Both the position numbers and the translations under genes were made by a program. 40,378 bases of DNA from NCBI RefSeq assembly GCF_025210435.1, contig NZ_JAOART010000148.1:1-40378 (forward strand). Reading direction: 5' to 3'. Below the pieces are notes generated by a model, which searched no databases, had not been told where the DNA came from, and saw only the letters and a program-made list of their open reading frames with translations. Of the stretch, positions 1 through 25,439 are shown in pieces (positions within the stretch are counted from its first letter, which is position 1; every line of letters begins with the position of its first letter). This stretch comes from Anaeromicrobium sp. (GTDB lineage: Bacteria; Bacillota; Clostridia; Peptostreptococcales; Thermotaleaceae).

Positions 1-156
1 TCACAAGCGAAAGTGTGAATCTTCGTATATAGGTTCATGTGTCATGTTGGAGTAGCATAGGATGTTGTGACGTTCCAGGGTTCCAAAGATTTTCAATATA
101 TTTTCCCTTATAGGCAAGTTACTGTATAAAGAAAGCTTAGTGTTGCGAAATCTATA
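1..156 (+). repeat. Dispersed structured element, copy 1 (5' part outside window)
   Basis: This is the 3' two thirds of an element repeated at 784-1000 and 21918-22133, closely matching copy 2 apart from scattered substitutions. It keeps the inner hairpin region (CACAAGCGAAAGTGTG), the GTTGTGACG block near 67-75, the 3' arm of the long helix near 84-107 (with changes) and the conserved tail ending GCGAAATCTATA. No gene follows it on the plus strand: it runs into a palindrome and then the 3' end of a minus-strand gene. So at least this copy is not the leader of a downstream gene. Confidence 0.75.
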
Positions 157-607: not shown

Positions 608-783
608 GATAAAGTGCCCCCTATACTGATTCTTCATAATGTTAGACTTATTATAACTTAAAAAGTTCCTGGAAAAAATTAAAAATAGATTAAAATTATG
701 TTACAAAAATATTATTAATATATCTACCCAATAATAAGAACCTTAAAATTAAATGTGGAAATTATATAGATTTCTGGTGTACA

Positions 784-1000
784 AACTTGCTTTATGCCGG
801 CCTACTTCAGGAAAATATATTGAAAATTTTTTCCATTGAAGTCCTTGTCACAAGCGAAAGTGTGAATCTTCGTAGATAGGTTCATGAGTCATATTGGAGT
901 AGCATAGGATGTTGTGACGTGCCTCAATTCCAAAAATTTTCAATATATTTACCTTCGTAGGCAAGTTACTGTATAAAGACAGCTTAGTGTTACGAAATCT
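784..1000 (+). ncRNA. Dispersed structured RNA-like element, copy 2
   Basis: A complete copy of about 217 nt. Visible nested helices: CTTTAT (790-795) with ATAAAG (973-978); GCCTAC (800-805) with GTAGGC (957-962); a 23-nt arm (809-831) with 932-954, one mismatch; and inner GTCACAA (847-853) with TTGTGAC (912-918), enclosing a small GAAA-capped hairpin. Copy 3 differs in the long helix but keeps complementarity on both sides, so pairing is conserved rather than sequence. A conserved single-stranded tail (TTAGTGTTACGAAATC) follows. The secreted PepSY-like gene starts 134 nt downstream. I could not match it to an RNA class from memory; no terminator is visible after it. Confidence 0.6.
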
Positions 1001-1133
1001 ATAAAGGAAATAATAATAAAAAAAAACATAATTTTAAAAGGGGAACATTATTTATATAATATACGTCATAAATATGTACAAAACATTAAAGAAGAATAAT
1101 CATGTTAAGAAATTATAAGAAGGGGAGATGAAA

Positions 1134-3188
1134 ATGAAGGGGATTATATGTAAAATTTTAGTGTTAATGCTCTTGCTCACTAGTTTTGGAAGTACCATGG
1201 CCTTTGGTGAAGATATGGGATTAGAGGATGCAATACATAAAGCTAAAGAAAAAGTTAATGTACCGGATACGTATAAAAAATTTGATTATAATGTGTATAC
1301 CATAAGTGATAAAAAAATATGGGGAATGAATTGGATAAATGAAAAGACTAGTGAATCTATTCATGTATCCGTTAATGAAGATGGAGAGATGATATCCTAT
1401 AGATATTACGATGGGAAGTACCATAAAGAAAATAAAATACCTAGATATAGTAAGGATGATGCCATAAAAATTGCCAAGGATTTTATAAAGGAAATGGACT
1501 ATAGTTTACTAGATAAGGTGAAATATGAATATGATAAAAAAGAAAAATTACCTGTTAGGCAATATCGTATGTTTTTTTATAGGGTAATAGACAATATTCC
1601 CTTTTATGAAAATGGTATAGAAGTAAGTGTAGATTCCCATAGGGGAAAAGTGATTAGTTACAATAAAATGTGGGATAATATAAAATTCCCTAGTAACAAG
1701 AATATTATTAGTGAAGAAAAGGCTAAGGAAATATTTAAAAAGGATCTAGGATTAGAATTGGTTTATAAATTTAAATATGAAGAGGACGCTGTAAAAGCCT
1801 ATTTAGCATATGTACTCAAGTATGATAGACAAAATAGTATAGATGCTAACAGGGGAGAAGTGGTGAAGGCTGATTATTATTATATTGACTATCCAAGATA
1901 TGAAAATGTTACTATGAAAGAAGATAAAGCCCTTGGACGCTCCCTGTCTCCAGAAGAACAAAAGGCTGTAGATTCTTCTAAGGATATAATGGGTAAAGAA
2001 AAAGCAGAAAAAATAGCTAGGAGTATAGATGAATTAAAAATAGGAAATGAATATGAATTAAAAGATGCTAACATATATAAGGTTCATAGAGAAAATGAAA
2101 GATTCAAGTGGGAGTTATATTTCAAAAAGAAAGAAGATAAAGAATATGTAAATGTAAGTGTGGATGCTAAGGATGGGAAGGTATTAAGTTTTTATAAGGG
2201 TAGAGATTATACGGATGAAAAGGGAAAATATGAAAAAGAAGAAGCGAAAAAAATAGTAGAAAAATTCTTAGAAAAGTTTTCTGTAGATTATAAGAACACT
2301 GCTTATAAGGAGTATGATGAAGTATCCTATGAAAATGTAGAAACTCCTACTTATTACACCTTTACTTATAGAAGACTGGTAAACAATATTCCTGTAAGAG
2401 ATAATTTCATAAGGGTTACTTTTAACAATATAACAGGAGAGATTCAATCATATAATTTAAATTGGTTTAATGTGAAATTCCCAACAGGAAAAACCATATC
2501 CCTAGATAAAGCATATGACATTATGTTTAAACAAATGGGTATGGAACTAAACTATAGAAGAAGATATGAAAAGCCTAAATCAGTACCTATTAACAAAAAC
2601 TACAATGTGGCTTTAGTATATTCCGTAAAAGGCCATTACCCAGTTATATACCATGGCATAACTGGCAAACTATTAGACCATAATGGAAAACCTATAATAA
2701 TAGAAATGGAAGAAAACAATAAGGTTATAAGTGGCCATAAATATGAAAAAGAAATGAATGGATTAAGGGAATATGGCATATTGTCAATGAAAAAAGGATT
2801 CCAACCAGATGGTAAAATACTTCAAAGGGACTTTTTAAGGTTAACACTAGATGCTTTGGGACAGCATTATAATAAAGATAATATGGATGAAATGTATAGG
2901 GTCCTAATTAATGAAAACATCATTAAGGAAGAAGAAAAAAATCCAGAAGGTATGGTTACAGAAAAGGATGCTACTAAGTTCGTAGTAAGGGCCTTAGGCT
3001 ATGAGGAAATAGCTAAATCAGGAGAAATATTTAAGTATCCATATGATTCTAATAGGCTAGATAAAGAATATATTGGATATATTACTATAGCTAACAAGTT
3101 AAGTATTATTAAGGATGAATTCAACCCTAATAAGGATTTAACAAATGGAAGAGCAGCTTATATGATATACAACTATTTAACTAGATAG
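1134..3188 (+). CDS. Secreted YcdB/YcdC (PepSY-like) protein with SLH-like C-terminus
   Basis: An exported protein of 684 aa. The ATG at 1134 is 8 nt from AAGGGGA; the ATG at 1128 is only about 2 nt from it and in frame, so it is less likely. Residues ~1-27 form a signal peptide (ILVLMLLLTSF...MAFGED). Two similar ~220-residue halves follow, each with the pattern of a PepSY/YcdB unit (xxxDAIKIAKDFIKE; RMFFYRVIDNIPFYENGIEVSVD; later FTYRRLVNNIPVRDNFIRVTF). The last ~130 residues (QPDGKILQRDFLRLTLDALG, NPNKDLTNGRAAYMIYNYL) look like degenerate S-layer-homology repeats, suggesting cell-wall attachment. PepSY units are linked to protease propeptide or regulatory roles; the specific role is unknown. 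Single gene, with its own terminator. Confidence 0.82.
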   Translation: MKGIICKILVLMLLLTSFGSTMAFGEDMGLEDAIHKAKEKVNVPDTYKKFDYNVYTISDKKIWGMNWINEKTSESIHVSVNEDGEMISYRYYDGKYHKENKIPRYSKDDAIKIAKDFIKEMDYSLLDKVKYEYDKKEKLPVRQYRMFFYRVIDNIPFYENGIEVSVDSHRGKVISYNKMWDNIKFPSNKNIISEEKAKEIFKKDLGLELVYKFKYEEDAVKAYLAYVLKYDRQNSIDANRGEVVKADYYYIDYPRYENVTMKEDKALGRSLSPEEQKAVDSSKDIMGKEKAEKIARSIDELKIGNEYELKDANIYKVHRENERFKWELYFKKKEDKEYVNVSVDAKDGKVLSFYKGRDYTDEKGKYEKEEAKKIVEKFLEKFSVDYKNTAYKEYDEVSYENVETPTYYTFTYRRLVNNIPVRDNFIRVTFNNITGEIQSYNLNWFNVKFPTGKTISLDKAYDIMFKQMGMELNYRRRYEKPKSVPINKNYNVALVYSVKGHYPVIYHGITGKLLDHNGKPIIIEMEENNKVISGHKYEKEMNGLREYGILSMKKGFQPDGKILQRDFLRLTLDALGQHYNKDNMDEMYRVLINENIIKEEEKNPEGMVTEKDATKFVVRALGYEEIAKSGEIFKYPYDSNRLDKEYIGYITIANKLSIIKDEFNPNKDLTNGRAAYMIYNYLTR

Positions 3189-8198: not shown

Positions 8199-8285
8199 TT
8201 CTTCACCGATAAGGGCAAACCAAGGGAAATCTTGGGACGCAAAGCTAAAGGGCCTTACATTAGATGGTAGCCAGTTTTCGAAGGA
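8199..8285 (+). promoter_or_regulatory. c-di-GMP-I (GEMM-I) riboswitch
   Basis: The GEMM-I signature is present in order: GGGCAAACC (8213-8221), a GAAA-capped hairpin, GGGACGCAAAGC (8234-8245), GGGCC, and GGTAGCC near 8266-8272 for the second helix. A closing helix can form between 8199-8204 (TTCTTC) and 8280-8285 (GAAGGA). That 3' strand overlaps the Shine-Dalgarno AAGGAGG (8281-8287) of the transglutaminase-like gene, and no terminator fits before its ATG at 8297. Ligand-stabilised closing would therefore hide the ribosome site, predicting translational repression at high c-di-GMP; the direction is inference. Confidence 0.93.
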
Positions 8286-8296
8286 GGAATTTTATT

Positions 8297-9088
8297 ATGC
8301 TAAAAAAAGTATTAGTATGTTTTATTATGGTAGTGATTTTTACTACAAATTTTTCATTTGCAGAGGATGATCATATTTTTGATAAAAGTCAATTACATAA
8401 GGGGGTTATCAGTGGAAATTACCATATAAATAATATTCATGGGATAAAAATTATGATACAAAAGGGAAAAGATAAACATTTTTATAATTTGGAGAAAAAT
8501 AAATATTATCCTTTGGCCTTTGGTAATGGAGAGTATTTTATTGCCATACTAGAATCGGTTGAAGGAAAAAAATATAAGGTAGTAGCCCATGAAAAAATAA
8601 ATTTAAATTTAAAGGATGAAAACATTGTATATTTAAATTCAACGCAAACTATAAATTGGAATAATAACATGGAATCAATAATAAAAGCTAAGGAATTAAC
8701 AAAAAATCTGAAGACAGACAAAGAAAAAATTACAGCTATTTACAAATATATTATTAACAATATTTCCTATGATAATGAAAAAATCCCTTATATTAATAAG
8801 AACTATGTTCCCAATATAGAGATTACATATGAAGTGAAAAAGGGAATTTGTTATGACTATACTTCTTTATTTGCTTCCATGTTAAGAAGTATAAACATTC
8901 CTACAAAACTAGTTAAAGGAAATAAAAATGATATAAATACTTACCATGCTTGGAACGAAGTTTATATTAGTGATACAAATGAGTGGATTATAATAGATAC
9001 TACTTACGATGCTCATTTACTTAAAAATAATTTATCCTATTCCATGATTAAGAATTCAAATGAATATTTTTCAAAGGGAAAATATTAA
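8297..9088 (+). CDS. Secreted transglutaminase-like protein under c-di-GMP riboswitch
   Basis: Of 263 aa. A longer in-frame ATG at 8264 lies inside the riboswitch aptamer; the true start is the ATG at 8297, 9 nt after AAGGAGG, which gives a clean signal peptide (MLKKVLVCFIMVVIFTTNFSFAED). The C-terminal half is a papain-like transglutaminase core with Cys185 (KKGICYDYTSLFASML), His217 (YHAWNEVYI) and Asp234 (WIIIDTTYD). Such bacterial domains act as cysteine proteases or amide-transfer enzymes, usually outside the cell; the substrate here is unknown. Its place between a sortase and an LPXTG adhesin suggests maturation or turnover of surface proteins, which is inferred only from position and shared c-di-GMP logic. 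A terminator separates it from the adhesin. Confidence 0.9.
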   Translation: MLKKVLVCFIMVVIFTTNFSFAEDDHIFDKSQLHKGVISGNYHINNIHGIKIMIQKGKDKHFYNLEKNKYYPLAFGNGEYFIAILESVEGKKYKVVAHEKINLNLKDENIVYLNSTQTINWNNNMESIIKAKELTKNLKTDKEKITAIYKYIINNISYDNEKIPYINKNYVPNIEITYEVKKGICYDYTSLFASMLRSINIPTKLVKGNKNDINTYHAWNEVYISDTNEWIIIDTTYDAHLLKNNLSYSMIKNSNEYFSKGKY

Positions 9089-9344: not shown

Positions 9345-9398
9345 AAGGGGGGATTTCAATTTTAAATTATAAAAATTTAATATGGAAGGAGGCTCTTG

Positions 9399-12300
9399 AT
9401 GAAGAATTTTTACAAGGGTAGTAATCCATGGGTAAGTTTATTTACCATTGTAGTTTTATTGCTACAAGTTTTTCTACCATTTATTCAGATTGTTGGATTT
9501 GCTGCTGATGATAGTGGTGGATTAACAATTAGCCAGTCTGTTAATAAAACTAAAATAAAACCAAAGGAAGAAATTACTGTTAAGTTAGATTATTCCAGTT
9601 CTAATATTGATAATAACTTTTATGATGTGGAATTATCCTATACTCTACCCCCTGGTGCCATATACAAATCAGTAACTAGGTCAGGTCATGTTATAGAAGA
9701 CCCCATATATGATCCATCCACAAGAAGGGTAACTTTCAAATTAGGAGATAGACTTTCAACTACTGATAAAAGCTTATTTCCATCGGGGGGGAATGGATTT
9801 GTAGAGGTTAAGTTTGCATTTCCTAGTCCAAGTGTATATCCTAATGGGAAAACTATAAAGTTAAATAAAGCTGAGCTTAAAGGAAAGCTTAATAGTTCTT
9901 CTGGAACTTTGAAAACAGCATATGGTAATATTGTAAACTTGACCATGTCCTTGGCAGATAGTTGGATTATTACTAAAACAGCACCAAAAACCGCTACAAT
10001 TTCTACTAATCCAAATCAAAAGGAATTGAAAGTAGATTATACTATTAATTTAAGTGGTGGAAATATAAATCTTAAGGATGTGGAAATAGTAGATACTCTA
10101 CCCCAAAATGGAACATTTGTATCATCAACTATTACACCTACTAGCAGAAATGGCAATACATTAACTTGGAAATTATCAGATGTTATTGCTGGTAAAACTA
10201 CATCTATAAATGTGAAAATAAAATTTCCCATATTTAGAAATTCAGGTGATGTGGGGGTAAAAGAAGGAGATAGTCGTAGAAATAGTGTTTCTGTTACAGG
10301 GTATCCCATAGAAATGAAGGATGATGGCACCATAGGAAAATGGTCCCAAAAGATAGACTTTAAAGAATCATCTGCCAGTGCTACTACTGGATTTATTAAG
10401 TCTACGGCAGTTTGGAAAGTAGACACTTCTGGTCCAGAGAAGGTAAAACTTACTAAAGATCCTAGGGTAAAGGAAGTGCAAGTAGGTTATAATGTACGTT
10501 TAATTAATGGTGATATAGATTTAAAGGACGTGGATTTATCCTATAGATTACCAGATGATGTAATATATAAATCCTCAGAAGGTGGAGTTTACGATGAAAA
10601 CAATCACACAATTAATTGGCACTTTGAAGATGTTTCTGTAAGCAATCCTCCAAATAAAAGAGTTGTAGTAAAATATAAGATTGATAGACAAGGTAGTGGA
10701 ATTGGTGTAAAACATAATTCTATACGATCAAATACTGCTATGGCAAGGGCATATCCTATAGAAATAAAGGATGGAAAGATTGTTAAAGGGGATACACCTG
10801 TAACATTCAATCCAGCTAGTCATAGTATAACTACTAAATTTATTAATTCAGATGAACAGTGGTATATATATAAGGGAGCTTTATCAAAATATACTATTCC
10901 AAATGATGATTCAAAGAATACTAAAGAAATGGTATACACAATTACATTGAATACTACGGATAATGGGGATTATAATATACCCTTAAAAGAGGTAACCATA
11001 ATAGATACATTGCCTCAAGATGCCCAATATATATCATCAAGTATTAATCCAATTAGTATGGTAGGTAATAAGATTACTTGGAAGCTTACGGATGTATCTC
11101 CTAAAAATACTCCAAGTATAATTGTTAAAGTAAAATATCCTATAGATAGGAATAATTTGGGAATTGGAGTAGTGCCTAATTCTACACGTACCAACTCTGT
11201 TTTTGTGGAAGGATATCCTATTGAATTAGATCATAATGGAGATGAAATAAAGTCTTCTGAAAAATTAGTATTTAAAACTAATATAGCCAATGCTACTACT
11301 AATTTTGTAAGTCCACCAGATCCTAAGCCTAAATTTAATCTAGGAATTTATGATTATAATTCCGATAAAAATTTTGGTCATGGAGATGAAATAATCTACA
11401 CAATTGACTTTAATAATATAAAAGATAATGGTCATACCCTATCTAATGTGGTTATTACAGATGAAAATTTATCAGAACATATAGATTTTAAAGAAATATA
11501 TTTGGGAAGGTCTTTACTATCTGCAAATTATACCTTTGCATATAAGACTAATAAAAAGGGATGGATAAATGATAGTACATCTCGTAATACTCAAAGTGAA
11601 AATATAATAAATATAAGCTCATTGAGTTTAGATAGTGATGAATATATAAGGGGTATTAGGTTAATATATGATACTATTCCTGTAAACTTTAAATTTTCAG
11701 AAAAGATAAAGTTAAAGGGAATGGTAAAGAGTTTAGCAAGTAATAATTCATTCATTGAAAACAATGCTAATTTAGAATATGGATTTAATGTATTTACAGG
11801 TAATACAAGAAAGTCCTTATCTGATGGCATAAATTTTAAAGTACTAATAGATAAGGCTTGGATTTCCCATTTGGAAAAGAAAAAACTTACTGAAGATGAA
11901 AACTATGCCCACTACACTTTAGAAGACATAGAGTTTGAATTATTAGCTACAAACCATGGCCGATTAGGAACGGGTTCCTTGAAAAAACCTATTTTAATAG
12001 ATGTGGTTCCTAATGGATTTGAATATTTAAGCAACAATAAGTGGAAAAGCACATGGAATACATTAAATGGACATATACCAGAACCAAAATTTGAAAAATA
12101 CGAGAATTATCCAAACCTTGGTGAAACCACACTAAAATGGTATTGGAATGATTATGACCTTCCAAAGGGTAAAAGTATTAGATTAAAGTATGATCTGAGA
12201 ATCAAAAGTTATGCAGATGTAGGAGTACATACTAATAAATTATATATGATAAGTGAAGGTGAATACTTAACAAGTGCTGGTATTAATATTGAACCTGATA

Positions 12301-15300
12301 GTGAGGATTTAGACAAGGACCCTACTACTAGTAACCGTCTAGTGGGAAATCCATCAAATATTAAAGTTAGGGAAACACCTGCCCTTAATGCCTATAAGTG
12401 GGTAAGAGGAGAATTTGATGGTGATAATTACAAACGTCTTAATGAAAAGGGAAGTACAACACCTGGAGGTTCTGCTGACTATAAATTAGAGGTCTTTAAT
12501 GGAGGAAATGTTCATGTAAATAATATTGAAATTATAGATATTCTTCCTTACATTGGAGATACGGCAGTGTTAAATCCTAGTCAGAAAAGAAAATCCCAGT
12601 GGAGTCCCTATTTAATAAAAAAATTAAGTGAAGGAAATTTACCTATAGTAAAGGATTCTAATGGAATTATAACCCATGCCAATGTGGAAGTATATTATAG
12701 TACAGCTACAGACCCAGTCCGTAAAAAGGGAACGGGAGAAATAGGAAGTGAAAATCCTAATTGGTCTAAGAAACCACCTAGTGATATTACTAGTGTTAGG
12801 TCCTTAAAATTTTTAATAAATGGTTTTGATGATTCTAGAGGACTAGAACCAGGTAATATACTTACTCTACATTGGAAAATGAGATCTCCTGTGGGAGCTC
12901 CCACTAGTGGTGAGGTTGCATGGAACTCTATTAGTATGAGTGGAGAAACATTAGATAGTAAAGGAGATAGAGTATCCTTACTGCCAGCTGAGCCCCTAAA
13001 GGTGGGTATTGAAGTTAAAACAAATCCAATTGGGGAAATTGGGAATTTCATATGGTTTGATAAAAATAATGATGGATATCAAAACGATGGGTATGATGAT
13101 CAATCGGCAGGCATAAATGGAATTACTGTTAATCTTCACAAGAAGGATTCGGGAACAGATAATTGGAATATAGTAGATACAACCTTAACAGGAAATGATC
13201 ACCAAGGAAATCCTGGATATTATTTATTTCCTTATTTAGAAAGGGGTAATTATTATGTATCCTTTGAAATACCTAATTATTATAAGGTAGGCAAGAAGGA
13301 TGCCCATATACCTGAAACAACAACAAATGATGATTCTAAGGATTCGGATGGATACGAAGACGGGTCTACTATACGTACAGCTGAAATGGTTATAGACACT
13401 AGTAGTGAGTCTACACGTAAAAACCATAATGTAGATTTAGGATTAATCCAGTCAAGTGGATTGCCTAGTCTTAATGTGAAAAAGACAGCCATAGGGTATA
13501 AGAAAACTGATGGCACAGAAGTTTTATTTAATGGAACTAAAGGACCAGTAAATAAGGATGAAACCATACTTTATGAGATATTAGTTGAAAACAATGGTAC
13601 AGTTCCCCTTAATAATATTAGATTAGAAGATGAAATGGTAAATGAAGGATTTAAATTTACTAAGGCCACATTTACAGATCCTAATTCTAATGAAAAGGAA
13701 TTTGAACCTATAGATGAAGATCTTAATGTGATTTATAAAGATACTCCTAATACATTGACTGTAAATACATTAGGAGTAAATGAAAAATATGAATTTTATG
13801 GAGAATATAAAGTTATTGAAGCAGATGCTAATGAAGCTTGTGATAATAAAAACCCTGTGAAAAACACATTAAAGGTATGGGCTAATGAGTTAAAGGATAA
13901 TACAGACCCTACCAATCCACCATGTAAGGAAGTGGAAGAGACAGTACATATATCAGCCCTACGTTTAGAAAAGATAGTTTCTCAAATTAAAAGAAAAGAG
14001 AAGACGGAATTTGAAAATGTTACAGATATATCTAATTTAGCCGTTGAAGTGGGAGATATTATAAAGTACAAGATTACTGCATACAACGAAGGAAGTATAG
14101 ATTTAGACCATGTAAAGATAGATGATCCTAAAGTAAATCTATTACAACACGACCTTGGAACTATAGAAAAGGGTAACTCAAAATTTATTGAAGTACCATA
14201 CACTGTATCAGAATCTGATTTATCAAGTTCTATTTTAAATGAAGCCTTCGCTACAAATGATCATATTCGATATGAAGTAAAAGGGGAAAATAAAGTTTAT
14301 GTTAAAGACCTTACAGTTACAAAAACTGTAACGAAGATAAATGGAAAGGCAGCAAAGAAAAGGGATGGTAAGTTCATTGCTAATGTGGGGGATAAGATAG
14401 AATATACCATATCATTTAAAAATACAGGAAATTCTCCCCTGACAAATGTTAAGATAATTAAAGACGAATTAAGAACTTCTAGAAATTCTGATTCTCCTGA
14501 TACATTAGAATCGGATAAAGTAGTTTTTTCTACTTTAGGTGTTGGACAAAGGAAGGTCTATAAGATCAATTATATAGTAAAAGAAGAAGATATAGGAAGC
14601 AAAGGTACTACCCTACCTATTAATAATTATGTAGAAGCTATTAGTGAAGATACACAAATAATAAAGACGAGTAGTGTAAATGTGGAAATAGCCCATTTAG
14701 AAATTGAAAAAACAGCAGATAAGGGGCCTTATGCTGTGGGAGATTCAGTTAATTACACAATAGAAGTGACAAATAAAGGAAGTGTCGATCTTAACAATAT
14801 AAATATTAATGATCCTCTACTTGCTGATATAACAAACAAAAAAATCACATTACTTGCAGATAGGACAAGCTTAAATAATTCACAGATACTAAAGGGTTCT
14901 TACATGGTAAAATCATCTGACTTACTAGAGGGGTCGGATAATAATATTGAGAATGCCAAGATAAAAAATACTGTGACGGCTAAACATGACTATATAGGTA
15001 CTAAGGATGCTAATGTAGTAGTAGATACATTTGGAATAAATCTTGAAAAAACAGTATATATTGGTTCTTACCAATCTGGTCAAGTGGGGGGAGAACTTGC
15101 TGTAGGTCTAAAGGATCAACCGGTCACTTACATATTTACTGTAAAAAATACGGGAAGTACACATTTAGACCATATTAAGATTACAGATTTAAACTTGAAA
15201 AATAGTTCTGGACATGATTTAACCCAAGGTCATATGAACAAAGTAAGGGGTCATTTGCCTCTAGTACCTGGTGAGGAAGTAGCTTATTATTATGAGACAA

Positions 15301-18300
15301 ATATTAATGGCGATTTAACAAATACTGCTAGGGTTACAGGGAATCCAGTTGATCTTAATGGAGATGATATAGGTAAAATTCCAGAGGATAAAAATCCTTA
15401 TGATAGTGATACGGCCCAGGTAGATGAAGTAGCTCCAAAGATAACCATTGATAAATCTATACTAACTGGTCATGGTGATACAGTTACCAAATCAGTGTAT
15501 AGGGAAACAAATGATCCAATAACATATGTATTTACTGTAAAAAATGAAGGAGATACTTATATAAACAATATTTCCATTGTTGATGAACCTTTAGGACTTA
15601 AACCTAATACATGGCCTACAAGGGGAAAAGTGTTTTTAGGACCTGGAGAAACTACAACTTACCAATATAAGAGTACAGTAGAAGGTTCTCTTACAAACAT
15701 TGCTAAAGCCATAGGAGATGCTACAGATTCAAATAAAAATAAATATCCTAAAATTCCACTTGTTGAAAGTAAGGAAAGTAGTGCCAAAGTATATGTGGTA
15801 AATCCACAGGTAGAAATAGAAAAGACAGTGGCTAATGGACATATAGACCATATTAGTAAATCATCTGATGTGGTAAGTGATTATAAGGATGGACCTATTA
15901 CCTATTTCTTTAGGGTAATTAACAAGGGGGATACATATCTTCACAATATTAGAATAAATGATTCAAAGCTAGGTATAAATAAATCTAAAATGCAGTTAGG
16001 AAGTGGAGATGATACTAAGGCATTAGCTTCTGGAGATGACATAATCTATTACTATCATACTAAAATTAATGGTGATATTACTAACGAAGGAGAAGTTATA
16101 GCTACTCCATCAGACTCAAGTGGTAATAAATTAGTAGGTATATTAGATGATGTATCCCATGAGGATACGGCCAATGTTAAAGTATTGGGTAAAATAGGAG
16201 ACTATGTATGGCTAGATTCTAATGCTGATGGAATACAAGATAGTGATGAAAAGGGTATTAAAGGAGTTAAAGTTACTTTAACAAATGATTCAAATACTAC
16301 TAATAAACATAGGATTACAGATATTCATGGTAAATATTTATTTGAAGATCTAGAATCAGGTAAATACACTATCACAGTAGATACAAATACCCTAACCCCT
16401 AATGGACTAGTAATATGTAAGGATTCTTATCCAAAAGATTTAAGTTCAGATAGTACAACAAAGGTTACCCTTAAAGATGGTGAGATTATTCATACTGTTG
16501 ACTTTGGGTATAAACACTCAGGAAAGTTAGAAGGAATAGTTTGGATGGATTTCAATAAAAACGGTAAGAAAGATTCAGAAGAAGAAGGTCTTGAAAATAT
16601 TATTCTTAGTCTTACACGTAAAGGGGATAATAAAACTTTTAAAGAGGCTACTACTGATGGGGATGGTAAATACACCTTCAATGATTTACCAGAGGGTGAA
16701 TACATTGTAAAAGTAACTATGCCCGAGGATAAGAAGCTAGAACAAGTTTATGATCCTGATGGTACCCTTGATCATATGAATACTGTTAAACTACCTGCTG
16801 GAGGTAAAAAAGATAAGATAGATTTTGGATATCTTTACTCAGGTGCTATAGGTGATACAATATGGTATGACTTAGATGAAGATGGTATAAAAGATGAAGG
16901 TGAAGAGGGTATTAAAGGAATAGGGGTAAGGTTAGTTCGTAACTCAGATGGTAAGAACTTTACTACTAAAACAGATTCAGAGGGTAAGTATATATTTAAT
17001 GACTTACCTAAAGATAAATATGTTGTAACAGTGACTATGCCTAAAGATAAAAGGTTAAAACAAGTATCTGACCCTGTAAATAACAAATCATCTGATGACA
17101 CCTATGAACCTAAAAATTCTTATACTATTGATTTAGATAAGGGTGAACAAAATCTAACAGCAGATTTTGGATATAATCATACAGGTTCTATTGGAGATTA
17201 TGTATGGCTAGATCTAGATGGTGATGGAGATGAAGATCTTCATGAAAAGGGTATTAAACATATTAAACTCATATTGAAGGATAAATCAGGAAAAATATCC
17301 GACAAAAGGGTCATAACAGGTAATGATGGAGAATATCTATTTGAAAAATTACCTTCTGGTGAGTACACCATTGAAGTAGATATATCAACCATACCTAAAT
17401 ATTTAAAACCTAGTTATGATTTAGATAGTACTCCTGATAATCATACTTCAGTAAAGCTATCCCTTGGAGAAAACAAAAAAGATGTGGACTTTGGGTATGT
17501 AAGTACAGGGTTCATAGGAGATAGGGTTTGGAAAGATGAACATGATTATGGAGTCCATAATAGGGATGAAAAGGGTATTGATGGTGTAAAAGTAACCCTA
17601 TATCTTAAAGAAAACCATGTTTTCAAAGAAAAAGGGATTACTACTACTAAAGATGGTGGTAAATATTTCTTTGACAAACTTATTATGGGAGAATACAAAA
17701 TAGAATTAGATGAAAGTACCCTTCCAGAAGAAAACATGTATGTAACATATAATTTGGATGGAGAAAAGGATAATACTACAACAGTTATTTTGTCTGAAGA
17801 TAACATATCAACAGACAAAGTGGATTTTGCATATAGATCAGCCATTCCAAACTTGACTATCCAAAAGGAAGCTAACAAAGAAAATGTGGAAATTGGTGAT
17901 ACTATAGAATATACATTTACTATAAGGAATGAAGGGGAGACTGTTGTAGAAAATGTATATGTAGAAGATGATATGTTAAGCTTTAGAAAAAACATGGGAA
18001 CTTTAACAGTAGGTCAAGCCGTATATGAAAAGGTAGAGTATATGGTATTACAAAGGGATATTCCAGATTCAAATATTAAAGTGGCTAAAACCTATGACAT
18101 TGTAAATATAGCCCAAGTTTATAGTGACCAAACGGAAAAAGAATCTTCTAATGAATGTATAGTAAAACTTAATACAAATCCTGGATTAATGTTGAAAAAA
18201 ACAGGACCTAGAGGAACTGTTCAAATTGGAGATGAAATTGAATATTCTCTATTCCTTATGAACGAGGGAGATACAGTGGTACATCATGTGTACTTAGAGG

Positions 18301-19760
18301 ATGAATTAATAGGATTTAGTAAATACATAGATGAGCTTACTGTTGGTGAAGCTGTATACGAATCAGTACATTATACTGTTAAAGAAAAGGATGCACCTAA
18401 GCTTAAAAACATAGCCACGGCAAAAAGTAAAGAGACGGGTACTATAAGATCTAATGAGTGGATTGTAGATGTTCAAATTAATCCAAATCTAAGATTTATG
18501 AAATCAGGTCCTATAGGTTCTGTTAAAGTTGGAGATGACATATCATATTTATTCAGTGTACAAAATATAGGTGATACTGTAATAAAAAGTGTATATGTGG
18601 AAGACTCCATGCTGAATTTTAGTAACATAATTGAAGATCTTAAGGTAGGTAGCTCGAAGGAACTTCATCCAAATACTTATAGGGTAACACAAGAGGATTA
18701 TTGGAGAGGATTTATAACAAATAGGGCAGAAGCTTATTTTACAGTATCTGAAACTGTTTATGGCTCCGTATATAAATCTGAGAAAATCACTTCCACATGG
18801 ACCATACCTGTAATTGAAGCAGATAAAGATCTGAAGATAGAAAAAACTGTAGATAAAAAATCTGCTAAAGTGGGAGATGTGCTTAACTACACTATTAAAG
18901 TAACAAATACAGGTGACGTTAGATTAGATAATATCCATATTATAGATCCTTTAATCCATTTAGATGACATTATATCACTTGAAAAGGGTGAATCTAAAGT
19001 GTTCACGGGAACCTATAGGGTGAAAAAATCTGATGAACATAAGGGCAAAATCATTAATAAAGCCATAGCAGATAGTAAGGATACGGATTCTGTAAGCAGT
19101 ATTGTAGAAACAAAAATAGTAAAAGAACCGGACGATGGTTCTTCAACTGACAGTGGTGGTTCAACTGGTGGAGGTGGTGGCGGTGATTCAACGCCAGATA
19201 AACCTGATAAACCAGATAAACCAGATAAACCAGATAAACCAAGTGGTGGAGGTGGTGGAGGTAATCCTCCTAAGTCAGAAGAACCGGAGGAACCAAAGGA
19301 ACCAGAGGTGCCTGTAACAGAAGAAGTACCAAAGAATGAAGAAGTACCAAAGGAATTAGAGGAATCTAAATCACAGGATACGCCAAAAGAACCAGATCAA
19401 TTAAATCTAAATAAAGTAACTAATGAGGATACACCAATAAATGGGGTTGTGAAAGTTCCAGAGGGTGGTATGGTTAATATAAAAGAAGAACCATCAAATG
19501 GAAAAGTAACTATTGATGAAAATGGAAATTGGAAGTACACGCCAAATCCAGGCTTTGTAGGTAAAGATAAATTCACAATAAGAGTTACGGATGAAAATGG
19601 AAATGAAGAAGAAATTATAGTAGAAATAGATGTGGAAGAAATACCCCTTGGAATTATGAGTACCCTTCCAAAGACGGGAGAAGAAAATAATTTAGGATTA
19701 TATCTATTTGGCTCCATGTTAATTTTAGTTGGTGTAATATTGAGAAGAAGGGTTATATAA
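9399..19760 (+). CDS. Giant LPXTG-anchored adhesin with DUF11 and SdrD B-type repeats
   Basis: A wall-anchored protein of 3,453 aa. The ATG at 9399 is 6 nt from GGAAGGAGG; a TTG one codon earlier is less likely. Order: signal peptide (~1-36); several DUF11/isopeptide-like beta domains (~40-1200, with recurring 'DVEIVDTLPQNGTFVSS' type motifs); an SdrD B-type domain at ~1210-1350 (IGNFIWFDKNNDGYQNDG); more DUF11 domains (~1360-2260); five consecutive B-type domains (~2264-2810, motif IGDxVWxDxxxDGxxDxxExGI with Asp-rich likely Ca2+ sites); four further DUF11 domains (~2815-3240); a Gly-rich and PDK-repeat wall-spanning linker (~3245-3335); a Big/cadherin-like domain (~3340-3418); LPKTG at 3423-3427, a hydrophobic helix and RRR tail. 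The likely role is adhesion or cell-cell contact; the sortase at 7406 is a candidate anchor enzyme. The gene ends in a strong terminator. Confidence 0.95.
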   Translation: MKNFYKGSNPWVSLFTIVVLLLQVFLPFIQIVGFAADDSGGLTISQSVNKTKIKPKEEITVKLDYSSSNIDNNFYDVELSYTLPPGAIYKSVTRSGHVIEDPIYDPSTRRVTFKLGDRLSTTDKSLFPSGGNGFVEVKFAFPSPSVYPNGKTIKLNKAELKGKLNSSSGTLKTAYGNIVNLTMSLADSWIITKTAPKTATISTNPNQKELKVDYTINLSGGNINLKDVEIVDTLPQNGTFVSSTITPTSRNGNTLTWKLSDVIAGKTTSINVKIKFPIFRNSGDVGVKEGDSRRNSVSVTGYPIEMKDDGTIGKWSQKIDFKESSASATTGFIKSTAVWKVDTSGPEKVKLTKDPRVKEVQVGYNVRLINGDIDLKDVDLSYRLPDDVIYKSSEGGVYDENNHTINWHFEDVSVSNPPNKRVVVKYKIDRQGSGIGVKHNSIRSNTAMARAYPIEIKDGKIVKGDTPVTFNPASHSITTKFINSDEQWYIYKGALSKYTIPNDDSKNTKEMVYTITLNTTDNGDYNIPLKEVTIIDTLPQDAQYISSSINPISMVGNKITWKLTDVSPKNTPSIIVKVKYPIDRNNLGIGVVPNSTRTNSVFVEGYPIELDHNGDEIKSSEKLVFKTNIANATTNFVSPPDPKPKFNLGIYDYNSDKNFGHGDEIIYTIDFNNIKDNGHTLSNVVITDENLSEHIDFKEIYLGRSLLSANYTFAYKTNKKGWINDSTSRNTQSENIINISSLSLDSDEYIRGIRLIYDTIPVNFKFSEKIKLKGMVKSLASNNSFIENNANLEYGFNVFTGNTRKSLSDGINFKVLIDKAWISHLEKKKLTEDENYAHYTLEDIEFELLATNHGRLGTGSLKKPILIDVVPNGFEYLSNNKWKSTWNTLNGHIPEPKFEKYENYPNLGETTLKWYWNDYDLPKGKSIRLKYDLRIKSYADVGVHTNKLYMISEGEYLTSAGINIEPDSEDLDKDPTTSNRLVGNPSNIKVRETPALNAYKWVRGEFDGDNYKRLNEKGSTTPGGSADYKLEVFNGGNVHVNNIEIIDILPYIGDTAVLNPSQKRKSQWSPYLIKKLSEGNLPIVKDSNGIITHANVEVYYSTATDPVRKKGTGEIGSENPNWSKKPPSDITSVRSLKFLINGFDDSRGLEPGNILTLHWKMRSPVGAPTSGEVAWNSISMSGETLDSKGDRVSLLPAEPLKVGIEVKTNPIGEIGNFIWFDKNNDGYQNDGYDDQSAGINGITVNLHKKDSGTDNWNIVDTTLTGNDHQGNPGYYLFPYLERGNYYVSFEIPNYYKVGKKDAHIPETTTNDDSKDSDGYEDGSTIRTAEMVIDTSSESTRKNHNVDLGLIQSSGLPSLNVKKTAIGYKKTDGTEVLFNGTKGPVNKDETILYEILVENNGTVPLNNIRLEDEMVNEGFKFTKATFTDPNSNEKEFEPIDEDLNVIYKDTPNTLTVNTLGVNEKYEFYGEYKVIEADANEACDNKNPVKNTLKVWANELKDNTDPTNPPCKEVEETVHISALRLEKIVSQIKRKEKTEFENVTDISNLAVEVGDIIKYKITAYNEGSIDLDHVKIDDPKVNLLQHDLGTIEKGNSKFIEVPYTVSESDLSSSILNEAFATNDHIRYEVKGENKVYVKDLTVTKTVTKINGKAAKKRDGKFIANVGDKIEYTISFKNTGNSPLTNVKIIKDELRTSRNSDSPDTLESDKVVFSTLGVGQRKVYKINYIVKEEDIGSKGTTLPINNYVEAISEDTQIIKTSSVNVEIAHLEIEKTADKGPYAVGDSVNYTIEVTNKGSVDLNNININDPLLADITNKKITLLADRTSLNNSQILKGSYMVKSSDLLEGSDNNIENAKIKNTVTAKHDYIGTKDANVVVDTFGINLEKTVYIGSYQSGQVGGELAVGLKDQPVTYIFTVKNTGSTHLDHIKITDLNLKNSSGHDLTQGHMNKVRGHLPLVPGEEVAYYYETNINGDLTNTARVTGNPVDLNGDDIGKIPEDKNPYDSDTAQVDEVAPKITIDKSILTGHGDTVTKSVYRETNDPITYVFTVKNEGDTYINNISIVDEPLGLKPNTWPTRGKVFLGPGETTTYQYKSTVEGSLTNIAKAIGDATDSNKNKYPKIPLVESKESSAKVYVVNPQVEIEKTVANGHIDHISKSSDVVSDYKDGPITYFFRVINKGDTYLHNIRINDSKLGINKSKMQLGSGDDTKALASGDDIIYYYHTKINGDITNEGEVIATPSDSSGNKLVGILDDVSHEDTANVKVLGKIGDYVWLDSNADGIQDSDEKGIKGVKVTLTNDSNTTNKHRITDIHGKYLFEDLESGKYTITVDTNTLTPNGLVICKDSYPKDLSSDSTTKVTLKDGEIIHTVDFGYKHSGKLEGIVWMDFNKNGKKDSEEEGLENIILSLTRKGDNKTFKEATTDGDGKYTFNDLPEGEYIVKVTMPEDKKLEQVYDPDGTLDHMNTVKLPAGGKKDKIDFGYLYSGAIGDTIWYDLDEDGIKDEGEEGIKGIGVRLVRNSDGKNFTTKTDSEGKYIFNDLPKDKYVVTVTMPKDKRLKQVSDPVNNKSSDDTYEPKNSYTIDLDKGEQNLTADFGYNHTGSIGDYVWLDLDGDGDEDLHEKGIKHIKLILKDKSGKISDKRVITGNDGEYLFEKLPSGEYTIEVDISTIPKYLKPSYDLDSTPDNHTSVKLSLGENKKDVDFGYVSTGFIGDRVWKDEHDYGVHNRDEKGIDGVKVTLYLKENHVFKEKGITTTKDGGKYFFDKLIMGEYKIELDESTLPEENMYVTYNLDGEKDNTTTVILSEDNISTDKVDFAYRSAIPNLTIQKEANKENVEIGDTIEYTFTIRNEGETVVENVYVEDDMLSFRKNMGTLTVGQAVYEKVEYMVLQRDIPDSNIKVAKTYDIVNIAQVYSDQTEKESSNECIVKLNTNPGLMLKKTGPRGTVQIGDEIEYSLFLMNEGDTVVHHVYLEDELIGFSKYIDELTVGEAVYESVHYTVKEKDAPKLKNIATAKSKETGTIRSNEWIVDVQINPNLRFMKSGPIGSVKVGDDISYLFSVQNIGDTVIKSVYVEDSMLNFSNIIEDLKVGSSKELHPNTYRVTQEDYWRGFITNRAEAYFTVSETVYGSVYKSEKITSTWTIPVIEADKDLKIEKTVDKKSAKVGDVLNYTIKVTNTGDVRLDNIHIIDPLIHLDDIISLEKGESKVFTGTYRVKKSDEHKGKIINKAIADSKDTDSVSSIVETKIVKEPDDGSSTDSGGSTGGGGGGDSTPDKPDKPDKPDKPDKPSGGGGGGNPPKSEEPEEPKEPEVPVTEEVPKNEEVPKELEESKSQDTPKEPDQLNLNKVTNEDTPINGVVKVPEGGMVNIKEEPSNGKVTIDENGNWKYTPNPGFVGKDKFTIRVTDENGNEEEIIVEIDVEEIPLGIMSTLPKTGEENNLGLYLFGSMLILVGVILRRRVI
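16190..17835 (+). repeat. Five tandem SdrD B-type domain repeats inside the adhesin
   Basis: Repeat units begin near 16191, 16520, 16844, 17189 and 17510, each ~325-345 bp. Each opens with a variant of IGDYVWLD and closes with 'DFGY'. The nucleotide sequences have diverged, so this is an old protein-level duplication rather than a recent array. The fifth unit has a weaker Asp motif (KDEHDYGVHN). Confidence 0.8.
19194..19238 (+). repeat. 9-bp tandem repeat (CCAGATAAA x5) in the adhesin linker
   Basis: Five units encode Pro-Asp-Lys; four are identical and the second differs by one base (CCTGATAAA). Flanking Gly-rich codon runs are also repetitive. Such units are prone to copy-number change by slippage without breaking the frame, which would alter the length of the wall-spanning region. 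Confidence 0.85.
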
Positions 19761-21776: not shown

Positions 21777-21840
21777 AGGCATATTTAAAAAATAAATTAG
21801 TCATTTCACTGGTTATTTGAATTATTTCTTTCATATGCCT
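21777..21840. repeat. AGGCATAT-ended MITE-like repeat, medium form (copy B)
   Basis: A 64-bp copy with ends AGGCATAT and ATATGCCT and internal AATAAATTAGTCATTTCACT followed by GGTTATTTGAATTA. It equals the two ends of the 158-bp copy at 25271-25428 with the middle deleted. It lies in the 475-bp gap between the oxidase and pyridoxamine kinase genes, ~78 bp before structured element copy 3. No coding potential; no clear target duplication. Confidence 0.72.
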
Positions 21841-21884: not shown

Positions 21885-21917
21885 GGTAAATGAGCGTTTA
21901 TAGATTCATTATTTATA

Positions 21918-22133
21918 AACTTGCTTTATGTGAGCCTACTTCAGGAAAATATATTTTAATTTTTATCCATCTAAGTCGCCTGTCACATGCTAAAGTGTAA
22001 ATTTTAAAACTAGGTTCATGTGTTATGTTGACTATGCTTAAGATATAGTGACGCTCCAGATTCCTAAAAATTAAAATATATTTTCCTTCGTAGGCAAGTT
22101 ACTGTATAAAGTAAGCTTAGTGTTACGAAATCC
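21918..22133 (+). ncRNA. Dispersed structured RNA-like element, copy 3
   Basis: A complete copy of ~216 nt. Helices: CTTGCTTTAT (21920-21929) with ATAAAGTAAG (22106-22115, one G-U); GCCTAC (21934-21939) with GTAGGC (22090-22095); a perfect 23-bp helix (21943-21965 with 22065-22087); inner GTCAC with GTGAC. Compared with copy 2, the long helix has several substitutions and every one is matched on the opposite strand. The tail TTAGTGTTACGAAATC is identical to that of copy 2. The pyridoxamine kinase gene starts 40 nt after its end. A cis-regulatory leader, a processed small RNA and a mobile repeat are all possible; the gene contexts of the three copies have nothing obvious in common. Confidence 0.62.
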
Positions 22134-22172
22134 ATACAATATAATTTCTAAAAAGAGGGGGAAAAATATAAT

Positions 22173-23042
22173 ATGAAGCATTTAGTAAAAAGAGTAGCGG
22201 CAGTACATGATTTGTCAGGGTTTGGAAGAGCATCCTTGTCTGTTATAGTACCCATACTATCCACTATGAAAGTTCAGGTGTGTCCATTACCTACAGCCGT
22301 TTTGTCTACCCATACGGGAGGATTTGAAGGATATAATTTTATAGATTTAACAGAGACCATGGAACCTACCATAGAACATTGGGAAAAATTAGGCATAAAT
22401 TTTGATTGCATATATAGTGGTTTTTTAGGATCTCCTAAACAAGTTAATATAGTATCAAAATGTATAGATACCTTTAAAAGGGAAGACAATATAGTAGTAG
22501 TAGACCCTGTTATGGGGGACAATGGAAAACTATATGATACTATGGATGATGAAATGGTAACTAATATGAGAGGATTAATAAAGAAAGCAGATATAATAAC
22601 TCCTAATTTTACGGAAGTAATGTATCTTTTGGGAGAAGACCCAGGAAAAGAACCAGATCCTAAAAATATAAAGGAGTATCTTATGAGGCTTTCTGAAATA
22701 GGGCCTAATATAGTTATAATAACTAGTGTTCCAGATAAGGATAAGAGAACTAGTGTAGTTGCCTATGATAAAAAATTCAATAGATTTTGGAAAGTAAGTT
22801 GTGAATACATACCAGCCCACTATCCTGGAACTGGAGATTCTTTTACTAGTGTAGTTATAGGAAGTTTATTACAGGGAGACAGCTTACCAATGGCATTAGA
22901 CCGTGGAGTACAATTTATAAGTTCTTGCATTAAGGCCAGTTATGGTTTTGATTATAAGGAAAGGGAAGGTATTTTACTAGAGTTAGTTTTAGAGAATTTA
23001 AAAATGCCTATACTCATGAGTAGTTATGAATTATTAGAATAA
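22173..23042 (+). CDS. Pyridoxamine/pyridoxal kinase
   Basis: A ribokinase-family enzyme of 289 aa that phosphorylates the B6 vitamers pyridoxal, pyridoxine or pyridoxamine to feed the PLP pool in the cytoplasm. Typical features: N-terminal VAAVHDLSGFGRASL substrate loop (~8-22), TAVLSTHTGG (41-50), DPVMGD (111-116), TPNFTE (143-148), and the GTGDSF anion hole with catalytic Asp222 near the C-terminus. The length is normal for PdxY/PdxK. AGAGGGGG provides the ribosome site. It follows structured element copy 3 directly and precedes a nitroreductase by 71 bp; a weak promoter may lie in that gap (TTGCAT...CATAAT, 19-nt spacer), so an operon is not certain. Confidence 0.88.
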   Translation: MKHLVKRVAAVHDLSGFGRASLSVIVPILSTMKVQVCPLPTAVLSTHTGGFEGYNFIDLTETMEPTIEHWEKLGINFDCIYSGFLGSPKQVNIVSKCIDTFKREDNIVVVDPVMGDNGKLYDTMDDEMVTNMRGLIKKADIITPNFTEVMYLLGEDPGKEPDPKNIKEYLMRLSEIGPNIVIITSVPDKDKRTSVVAYDKKFNRFWKVSCEYIPAHYPGTGDSFTSVVIGSLLQGDSLPMALDRGVQFISSCIKASYGFDYKEREGILLELVLENLKMPILMSSYELLE

Positions 23043-23948: not shown

Positions 23949-25271
23949 ATGGAGCAAAATAATTCTAGAGAAACTTGGGGTTCAAAATTAGGGTTTATAT
24001 TAGCTTGTATAGGATCTGCCATCGGACTTGGAAACATATGGATGTTCCCTTGGAGATTGGGACAATTTGGAGGCGGAGCATTTTTAATACCATATTTAAT
24101 CTTTGTATTCCTATTAGGAACTACAGGACTTATGGGAGAGTTTGCCCTTGGGAGATCTCAACAAAGGGGAGCCATAGGAGCATTTGAGAAAGTTTTTAAA
24201 GAAAAGAAACTTCCTGGAGGAACATTAATAGGAACCATACCTGTAATAGCTCAGACGGGTGTATTTATATTTTATTCTGTAGTTGTAGGATGGGTATTGA
24301 GATTCTTTGTATTTGCCCTTAGGGATGAATTTAAAACTATGGATATAAATACGGCCTTTGGGAATTTTGCAGGTCATACGGAAAGTATAGGTTGGACTAT
24401 AGGTGCCATACTTATAACATTGTGTATAGTAATTTTAGGTGTTAAGAGTGGAATTGAAAAAGTAAGTAAAGTAATAATGCCTGCTCTATTTGGTATTTTT
24501 ATTATGCTTATGATAAATACTCTACTATTAAAGGGGTCTATGGAAGGAATTAAATACCTATTATTACCTGATTGGTCTTATCTTTTAAAAATAGACACTT
24601 GGGTAATGGCATTAGGGCAAGCTTTTTTCACTGTTTCACTAGGAGGAGCAGGTATGGTTGTTTTGGGAAGTTATTTACCAAAGGAGATGGATATACCTTC
24701 ATCCGCATTTAGTACAGCACTATTTGATACACTAGCAGCCCTAATGGCAGCGTTTATTATAATACCTGCAGCCTTTGCCTTTGATTTAGATCCAGGAGCA
24801 GGACCACAATTATTATTTATAACTATGCCAAGAATATTTAATATGATGGGTGGAGGATATGTATTTGGAATACTATTTTTCCTATGTTTAGTATTTGCGG
24901 CCATATCCACAGAAATAGTACTCATGGAAGTTGCTGTGGAAGCATTTATGGATAAATTGGGTATGAAAAGGACTAGTAGTGCTTTATTGACAGCTTGCAT
25001 AGGAATTGGAACTGGATGCCTTTTAAGTACAAATATGGAGTGGTTTGGCAAGTTTGCTGACATGGTTGCCATATACTTATTGCCATTTAGTGCTCTTTTA
25101 GCAGCCATAGCATTTTTCTGGATTTATGGAATAGATAAAGCTAGAAATGAAATCAATAGAGGTGCTAAAATAAAAATGGTGAAACATTGGGAAATATTAG
25201 CTAAATATATATTTGTATTTACAGCAACGGCAGTTTTAATTTTAGGAATTTTATATGGGGGAATAGGTTAA
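23949..25271 (+). CDS. Sodium-dependent transporter, SNF/NSS family
   Basis: A 440-aa inner-membrane Na+ symporter of the neurotransmitter:sodium symporter family (LeuT fold), likely importing an amino acid. The family signature is in TM1: WGSKLGFILACIGSAIGLGNIWMFPW, with the unwound GSAIGLGN region, then GGGAFLIPYLIF and GEFALGRS. TM6 (VMALGQAFFTVSLGGAGMVVLGSYL) carries the second unwound segment. About 11 hydrophobic helices and the short length match bacterial 11-TM members such as MhsT/TnaT rather than 12-TM LeuT. AAGGCGGTGATAAT upstream supplies the ribosome site. The gene has its own promoter and a long folded leader; a MITE-like repeat begins on the last base of its stop codon. Confidence 0.92.
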   Translation: MEQNNSRETWGSKLGFILACIGSAIGLGNIWMFPWRLGQFGGGAFLIPYLIFVFLLGTTGLMGEFALGRSQQRGAIGAFEKVFKEKKLPGGTLIGTIPVIAQTGVFIFYSVVVGWVLRFFVFALRDEFKTMDINTAFGNFAGHTESIGWTIGAILITLCIVILGVKSGIEKVSKVIMPALFGIFIMLMINTLLLKGSMEGIKYLLLPDWSYLLKIDTWVMALGQAFFTVSLGGAGMVVLGSYLPKEMDIPSSAFSTALFDTLAALMAAFIIIPAAFAFDLDPGAGPQLLFITMPRIFNMMGGGYVFGILFFLCLVFAAISTEIVLMEVAVEAFMDKLGMKRTSSALLTACIGIGTGCLLSTNMEWFGKFADMVAIYLLPFSALLAAIAFFWIYGIDKARNEINRGAKIKMVKHWEILAKYIFVFTATAVLILGILYGGIG

Positions 25272-25428
25272 GGCATATTCAAAAAATAAATTAGTCATTT
25301 CACTGGTTATTTGAATTACTTTCTTCGTTATGGAATCGCTTACATATATTCAATATGCTCGCTCACCATGTCTTGAAAATAATCCAAATCCCTCAGAAAA
25401 CTGATAATTTTATTTCTTTCATATGCCT
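25271..25428. repeat. AGGCATAT-ended MITE-like repeat, long form (copy C)
   Basis: A 158-bp copy with terminal AGGCATAT/ATATGCCT. Its left ~55 bp match copy B, and its right end (TTTCTTTCATATGCCT) matches copies A and B; the unique ~90 bp middle is missing from both. It contains no ORF of note. It lies between the transporter stop codon and the transporter terminator, so it is transcribed as part of the 3' UTR. Confidence 0.75.
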
Positions 25429-25439
25429 AATAATTAGGA

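Follow-up and report, generated by a model that had tools for sequence, protein, structure and literature searches.

Bacterial MITEs are often regarded as neutral fold-backs. The portions of the published accounts on which we draw describe several families of intergenic repeats that bear comparison with the element considered here. RUP (Repeat Unit of Pneumococcus) is an intergenic MITE linked to IS630-Spn1, with TA insertion, 108 copies and a length of 107 bp (PMC2229807, PMC3049150). In pneumococcus such repeats show only a modest strand preference, the leading-strand share being 60.8% for BOX, 60.9% for RUP and 63.3% for SPRITE, with over-representation between convergent genes (PMC3049150). 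The BOX repeats of Streptococcus pneumoniae are folded, co-transcribed with their neighbours and proposed to be IS-mobilised, and boxB has an orientation-dependent effect on expression (PMC3049150). The repeats bcr1-bcr3 of the Bacillus cereus group are MITE-like and intergenic, often lying in UTRs or between operon genes (PMC3446304), while ERIC and Correia are fold-back repeats with effects on the stability or the cleavage of the mRNAs in which they are co-transcribed, effects that in ERIC depend on orientation (PMC2229807, PMC3049150).

The element described here is present in three copies in the window, by which we mean the whole 40,378-nucleotide stretch of Anaeromicrobium sp. DNA that was analysed. 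As in the accounts of RUP, it is an intergenic MITE with TA insertion and terminal inverted repeats (TIRs) resembling a resident IS630 element (PMC2229807, PMC3049150). Unlike RUP (107 bp, 60.9% on the leading strand, in excess between convergent genes), it is 239 nt long, has a structured inner domain, is ~90% co-oriented in tandem contexts and lies mostly between co-directional genes (PMC3049150). Compared by description, it shares with bcr1-bcr3 the character of a MITE-like intergenic repeat (PMC3446304) and differs from BOX, which is built of modular boxA/B/C and is 60.8% leading-strand (PMC3049150). ERIC and Correia, unlike the element, have been described in Gram-negative bacteria; here the sequence comparison consisted of the Rfam search only. 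By its mobility the element, as judged from its sequence, belongs with the IS630-linked MITEs such as RUP, and by its likely action it would, on analogy, resemble the ERIC, BOX and bcr repeats that are carried in mRNAs. We recognised no report describing it in the portions of the open-access literature that were searched. It resembles the known IS630-linked MITEs but is not a plain one. Our reading, to which we give a probability of roughly 0.55, is that the element is a MITE of the IS630-linked kind whose core is constrained and probably acts in cis as RNA.

Limits, copy number and distribution

Alignments of 30 and 31 copies fix the ends of the element and its length of 239 nt (Table 1). A sequence-only reading had proposed three copies of a structured RNA-like element in the window, and all three exist, but the limits it gave to the two full-length ones (784-1000 and 21918-22133) were too narrow, and the conserved tail that it described is the 3' TIR, which in copy 1 has the sequence TTAGTGTTGCGAAATC. 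Copy 1 is partial, as had been said, because its contig (C108) begins inside the element. Copy 3 resembles one copy from a Marinisporobacter sp. McD1.33 MAG of the same family (G015) and some of those from a second genome of the same genus (G001). The nested helices, the central helix and the GTCAC/GTGAC closing pair are all present as had been described; the central-helix arms of copy 3 (21943-21972/22058-22087) are 90% complementary, and the inner domain is flanked by conserved AAGTC and GTTCC. With respect to the neighbouring genes, Pfam agrees with the assignments made beside copies 2 and 3, whereas copy 1, for which no neighbour had been named, is followed by an ORF on the other strand.

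Table 1. Element copies, their parts and their neighbours in the window
Feature	Position	Strand	Basis
Copy 1, 3' part only	1..156	+	nhmmer model positions 84-239, 173.8 bits
147-aa ORF, weak PrcB_C match	194-637	opposite to copy 1	Pfam
Copy 2, full-length, 239 nt	765..1003	+	alignment, exact ends
5' terminal inverted repeat of copy 2, TATAGATTTC; outer TA is the target dinucleotide	765..774	+	ends of 127 copies
Core domain GCCTA...TAGGC, modelled as R1	800..962	+	covariance model, 196.8 bits; regional identity
Long central helix, 5' arm	809..839	+	87% complementary to 924-954; covariation in G001
Inner domain: GTCAC/GTGAC helix, hairpin GTGAATCT/AGGTTCAT, CATAGGAT stretch	847..918	+	column identity
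Long central helix, 3' arm	924..954	+	inverted repeat with 809-839; covariation in G001
3' terminal inverted repeat of copy 2, GAAATCTATA	994..1003	+	alignment and ends of 127 copies
PepSY/DUF4901 protein gene, neighbour of copy 2	1128-3188		Pfam
Copy 3, full-length, 238 nt, diverged subfamily member	21899..22136	+	alignment, nhmmer
Phos_pyr_kin-family kinase gene, neighbour of copy 3	22173-23042		Pfam

The window holds several other features. A second hairpin repeat, with the sequence AGGCATAT...AAATTAGTC, is also dispersed; its copies in the window are at 157-212, 21777-21832 and 25271-25326 (with an inverted partner at 25394-25433). It lies near two of the window elements and elsewhere is the insertion target of an element copy. 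A c-di-GMP-I riboswitch (RF01051, 63.8 bits) at 8204-8282 (+) overlaps the called start of an ORF at 8264-9088 and lies upstream of a giant ORF of 3454 aa (9396-19760, +), the first 1368 aa of which match DUF11 and SdrD_B-like domains, so that its product is probably a giant surface protein.

The element is highly repeated. When as many as 3 mismatches are allowed, its core 18-mer TAGGCAAGTTACTGTATA has 295 matches in the own genome (a 3.96 Mb draft in 148 contigs), far beyond the chance level of 3 given by a reversed-pattern control. This corresponds to ~290 copies, which at 239 nt each make up, by arithmetic, nearly 2% of the genome; copy counts by contig are approximate, because the draft assembly breaks at the element repeats and at an IS630-family element. 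Such breaks are seen at window position 1 and at ends of C37, C39, C42, C94, C114 and C137. The R1 covariance model of the core gives a lower bound of at least 150 own-genome copies, the best 150 of 6857 loose candidates all having E <1e-27 (weakest 1.6e-28). Stretches totalling 534 kb, selected for containing elements, yielded 173 pieces of the element. Of these, 128 are essentially of full length, and 127 were aligned after leaving out one that is cut by a contig end; these are copies among the matches listed by the searches and not a random sample.

The median pairwise identity of the own-genome family is 0.87 over the whole element, and on this measure it looks like the younger family and resembles a recent burst. 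Among the 81 matches listed for G001 there are 78 distinct copies that are near-complete, and here the median identity is 0.65 with flanks included and 0.70-0.81 in the core; judged by this divergence, the G001 family is the older one. Our analyses of it use 74 of the 81 rows, four further full-model matches, two fragments and one self-antisense row having been left out.

The checks suggested by the sequence-only reading included an Rfam search and a covariance model. In Rfam at the gathering score, the riboswitch is the sole match in the whole window and the element has none; at E values up to 10, copy 2 gives nothing credible. R1 finds further copies in the own genome, G001 and G015 (five match rows in the last, two of them self-antisense). 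The same three genomes (G000, G001 and G015, own genome counted) are the only ones with R1 matches among 17 of the family and, under stricter filters, among 149 of the order. Several candidates from elsewhere, among the matches listed, were rejected: a Lachnospiraceae genome (L045) and three viral contigs have an 18-mer match without an R1 match, and blastn matches of 24-35 nt in G014, G036, G057 and G059 lie at loci that R1 does not recognise. A plasmid or phage origin was likewise set aside, blastn giving no match in the two collections searched.

Mobility and a probable IS630-family partner

The element is a MITE. The outer nine columns of its TIRs, TATAGATTT/AAATCTATA, have an identity of 92-98% on the 5' side and of 91-100% on the 3' side (n=127). 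TA stands at both outer ends in 106 of these copies, an equal non-TA dinucleotide in three (AA, AA and TG) and unequal dinucleotides in 18, the target duplication being of 2 bp (TA). When the element at C11:24601 is left out and its flanks are joined, they align with G001 without interruption, a clean empty site; in a set of eight empty-site alignments only two are clean. Moreover, the copy at C129:57634 interrupts a copy of the second hairpin repeat at its TA, and deletion derivatives occur that consist of ends only, for example at C119:45186-45300 (45186-45251 plus 45246-45300). The 239-nt element carries no transposase gene, and overlap with called ORFs of at least 80 aa is seen in three of the 136 copies examined for it (ORFs of 101, 549 and 89 aa). 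As a separate observation, the own-genome locus L097 around C5:6806 has a type-A element inside the middle of an old type-B element, and at the orthologous position in G001 the type-B element is uninterrupted.

A candidate source of transposase is resident. Pieces of a DDE_3 (PF13358, IS630-family) transposase lie at five own-genome contig ends according to Pfam; a sixth remnant, at C107, is unrelated-looking and contains a stop. The outer end of the five pieces, in one of them, is TATAGATTTCGTGGTAAAGACTTTGTTTTATGT. Aligned with this single readable IS end, the best element copies score 21 and 19, with means of 14.2 for the 5' end and 10.6 for the 3' end, against a mean of 3.6 (sd 1.8, max 15) for random 40-mers. 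Past the outermost nine bases, likeness to the IS persists at the 5' end (mean 6.7, best 14; random mean 2.9, 99th percentile 8.0) and is slight at the 3' end (mean 3.7, best 10). Among the findings named beforehand as refuting the sequence-only proposal was an exact match to the end of a known insertion sequence; the element ends approach this in resembling those of the resident IS630-family element, but the match is not exact. The element is very likely mobilised by the resident IS630-family transposase, an enzyme that is inferred and not proven because the IS body and the other IS end, when looked for in the own genome, were not found. In G001 there is neither a DDE_3 match nor a match to the own-genome transposase, and its elements therefore have the look of old copies in which the centre has been kept.

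Fold, covariation and conservation of the core

The ~165-nt core is probably a folded domain that has been maintained by selection over longer times, and not inert filler. The alternative is that we are dealing with an ordinary IS630-type MITE, a selfish fold-back without a host role. Its core conservation would then derive from source elements and gene conversion between copies, and its arm complementarity either from a DNA hairpin that aids transposition or from template-switch correction of imperfect palindromes. We consider this unlikely, but some of the evidence that follows favours it.

Copies 2 and 3 fold better than 200 of 200 dinucleotide shuffles (z -4.95 and -4.75), and the opposite strand of copy 2 exceeds its own shuffles even more (z -6.58). 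The compensatory changes that had been described between these two copies had been taken to mean selection on RNA structure, and covariation does hold in G001. Of the base pairs that make up the arms and the closing helix (34 pairs, 74 copies), 90% are Watson-Crick; compensatory changes (at least 3 copies changed on both sides) occur at 21 of the 34, as against 3-6 pairs with slid partners and a mean of 7.9 (max 14) with shuffled ones; columns 82/204 appear in all four Watson-Crick states plus A-C. In the inner hairpin, 2 of 11 pairs covary (shuffled mean 1.0). RNAalifold found almost no structure in the whole G001 alignment and was rerun on the core. The step from covariation to selection on RNA was too quick, however, as the own-genome singletons are equally frequent on paired and unpaired sites (62 on 110, or 0.56 per site, versus 28 on 48, or 0.58 per site, in 127 copies) and show no preference for wobble-keeping changes (G-U to A-C, 8:8); for variants in up to two copies the ratio is 22:24. 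Nor do the singletons avoid the columns conserved in G001 (0.63 against 0.49, p 0.30), whereas variants in up to three copies do so (0.98 against 1.67, p 0.018). Exchange between subfamilies leaves some helix positions unpaired, pair 74/161 being mismatched in 18 of 127 copies. That the young own-genome copies are without clear post-insertion constraint is what would be expected of an ordinary MITE.

The types of pair present are also relevant to the question of which strand, if any, acts. The arms fold on either strand, and in 57 of 74 G001 cores it is the opposite strand that folds to the lower energy. In 29 arm pairs of G001 there are 1907 Watson-Crick combinations, 25 G-U and 109 A-C; three pairs account for 73 A-C to 3 G-U, and the other 26 for 36 to 22. 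The own genome, with the ends included, has 226 A-C versus 139 G-U. Arm pairing that is overwhelmingly Watson-Crick and without a plus-strand wobble preference again suits the ordinary MITE. By itself the A-C excess would speak for the minus strand; strand-biased mutation could also produce it, because the copies share one orientation. The inner hairpin of G001, counted apart from the arms, has 85 G-U and 48 A-C, and its wobbles, some of them fixed, point to the plus strand.

In G001 the ends of the element have decayed while the cores are mostly full length, with median pairwise identities of 0.33 in the flank, 0.43-0.50 in the TIRs, 0.70-0.73 in the arms and 0.81 in the centre. Even where the core identity is >0.93, in 18 nearest-neighbour rows, TIR identity reaches only 0.50-0.57 (medians; the ends are harder to align). 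Gene conversion could be the cause of part of this gradient, and a smooth rise from flank to centre is indeed its expectation; the existence of derivatives reduced to their ends, as in C119, is also in keeping with an ordinary MITE. What conversion does not explain is that neighbouring columns of the G001 core range from 99% to under 50% identity; of its 170 columns, 52 vary in at most 5% of copies and 24 in at least 40%. It likewise counts against an ordinary MITE that these cores have stayed mostly full length in a genome with no detected DDE_3 transposase. Of the motifs that flank the helices, AAGTC (0.97-1.00) and GTTCC (0.89-1.00) hardly vary in the 74 G001 copies, CATAGGAT being less conserved (0.61-0.97); in the 127 own copies most columns of the inner domain are 0.84-1.00 identical and some are variable. 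With respect to shared positions, 13 G001 copies have both flanks in own-genome loci and four of the 13 have an element in the same gap; we make no claim from this, because the own loci were preselected for elements and one of the four is the insertion of a type-A into an old type-B element.

Orientation and a possible role in host transcripts

The copies are not oriented at random. Starting from 145 own-genome copies of at least 150 bits, we retained 136 near-complete ones, of which three overlap ORFs and nine have no neighbour (ORFs being called mechanically). Between co-directional genes, 84 copies run with the genes and nine against them (p 2e-16), the element lying at a median of 38 nt after the upstream stop and 90 nt before the downstream ORF. 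In G001 the corresponding counts are 57 and 5 (p 3e-12), with convergent element pairs accounting for three of the five exceptions. Such biases are unexpected for a near-symmetric MITE and thus tell against the ordinary fold-back. Four convergent pairs (plus then minus, with 3' ends facing at a short distance) were observed in G001, at C2:312542/312773, C8:109271/109453, C17:36931/37167 and C3:422/661.

The orientation could instead be set by the replication fork, through an insertion preference or leading-strand selection, so that co-orientation with genes would be a by-product of the leading-strand bias of the genes themselves. In favour of such a replication-linked element, all copies have the same orientation in 27 of 34 contigs with at least two analysed copies, and of the 32 copies whose neighbouring genes are convergent or divergent, 28 follow the leading strand as inferred from the GC skew of the fetched stretches (partial contigs). 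Where genes and this skew are discordant, seven copies follow the genes, five the skew, and four oppose both; seven '++' copies, which oppose the leading strand as inferred from partial contigs, argue in the other direction. Third-position skew in 20-kb stretches, where several cases are ambiguous or at contig ends, gives about five discordant copies that follow the skew against their flanking genes, ~3 that follow the genes against the skew and ~4 that are antisense to both. Gene direction and replication direction both appear to matter, and they are not fully separable; that the fork alone should be responsible seems doubtful to us.

Of the two possibilities offered by the sequence-only reading, a dispersed small RNA or an RNA-bearing mobile repeat, mobility has been borne out (TIRs, TA duplications, an empty site, an IS630-like partner) and nothing here supports a free-standing small RNA. 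An independent small RNA gene family with its own promoter would fit the discrete ends and strong folding, but is highly improbable given that a scan of 600-1200 (sigma-70 type; one copy) gave no promoter-like site inside copy 2 and no terminator-like site, and that the copies sit so close between co-directional genes.

We return, then, to an IS630-linked MITE with a constrained RNA core. That this core acts in cis as RNA within host transcripts, for example as a compact, polarity-neutral spacer or as a processing or stability element, is for us an evenly balanced proposition on the present comparisons. More generally, RNA action of the core is likely but unproven: the covariation and the conserved motifs speak for it, the arm mismatches, the singletons and possible gene conversion against it. 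What the sequences show are traces of past transposition, the copy number, the orientation bias, the covariation and the conserved motifs next to the helices; from these we infer the mobilising enzyme, RNA as the active molecule, its action in cis and the direction of selection. The scheme that we propose is one in which transposition would be orientation-blind or nearly so, and selection would clear those gaps between genes that are transcribed of antisense copies. Folded into a long closed stem with the conserved inner domain, the sense RNA would be located between cistrons and might act there on processing or stability, or against polarity. The orientation bias would arise because the sense transcript carries a benign or useful fold, while an antisense insertion would yield RNA complementary to the non-palindromic core that hundreds of sense transcripts contain, and most such insertions would be lost.

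More tentatively still, the element may be a mobile cis-acting RNA module whose cores are seeded sense-wise between operon genes; as the ends decay, as they have in G001, dozens of cores might be retained as working RNA elements (processing, stability, anti-polarity), and the result would be a domesticated MITE family forming a genome-wide set. With two congeneric species, ~90% co-orientation, helix covariation and ends that decay round a mostly intact core, the question of whether bacterial MITEs become RNA regulators would be directly testable, and the natural replicates are already supplied by the young own-genome copies, the old G001 copies and the empty sites.
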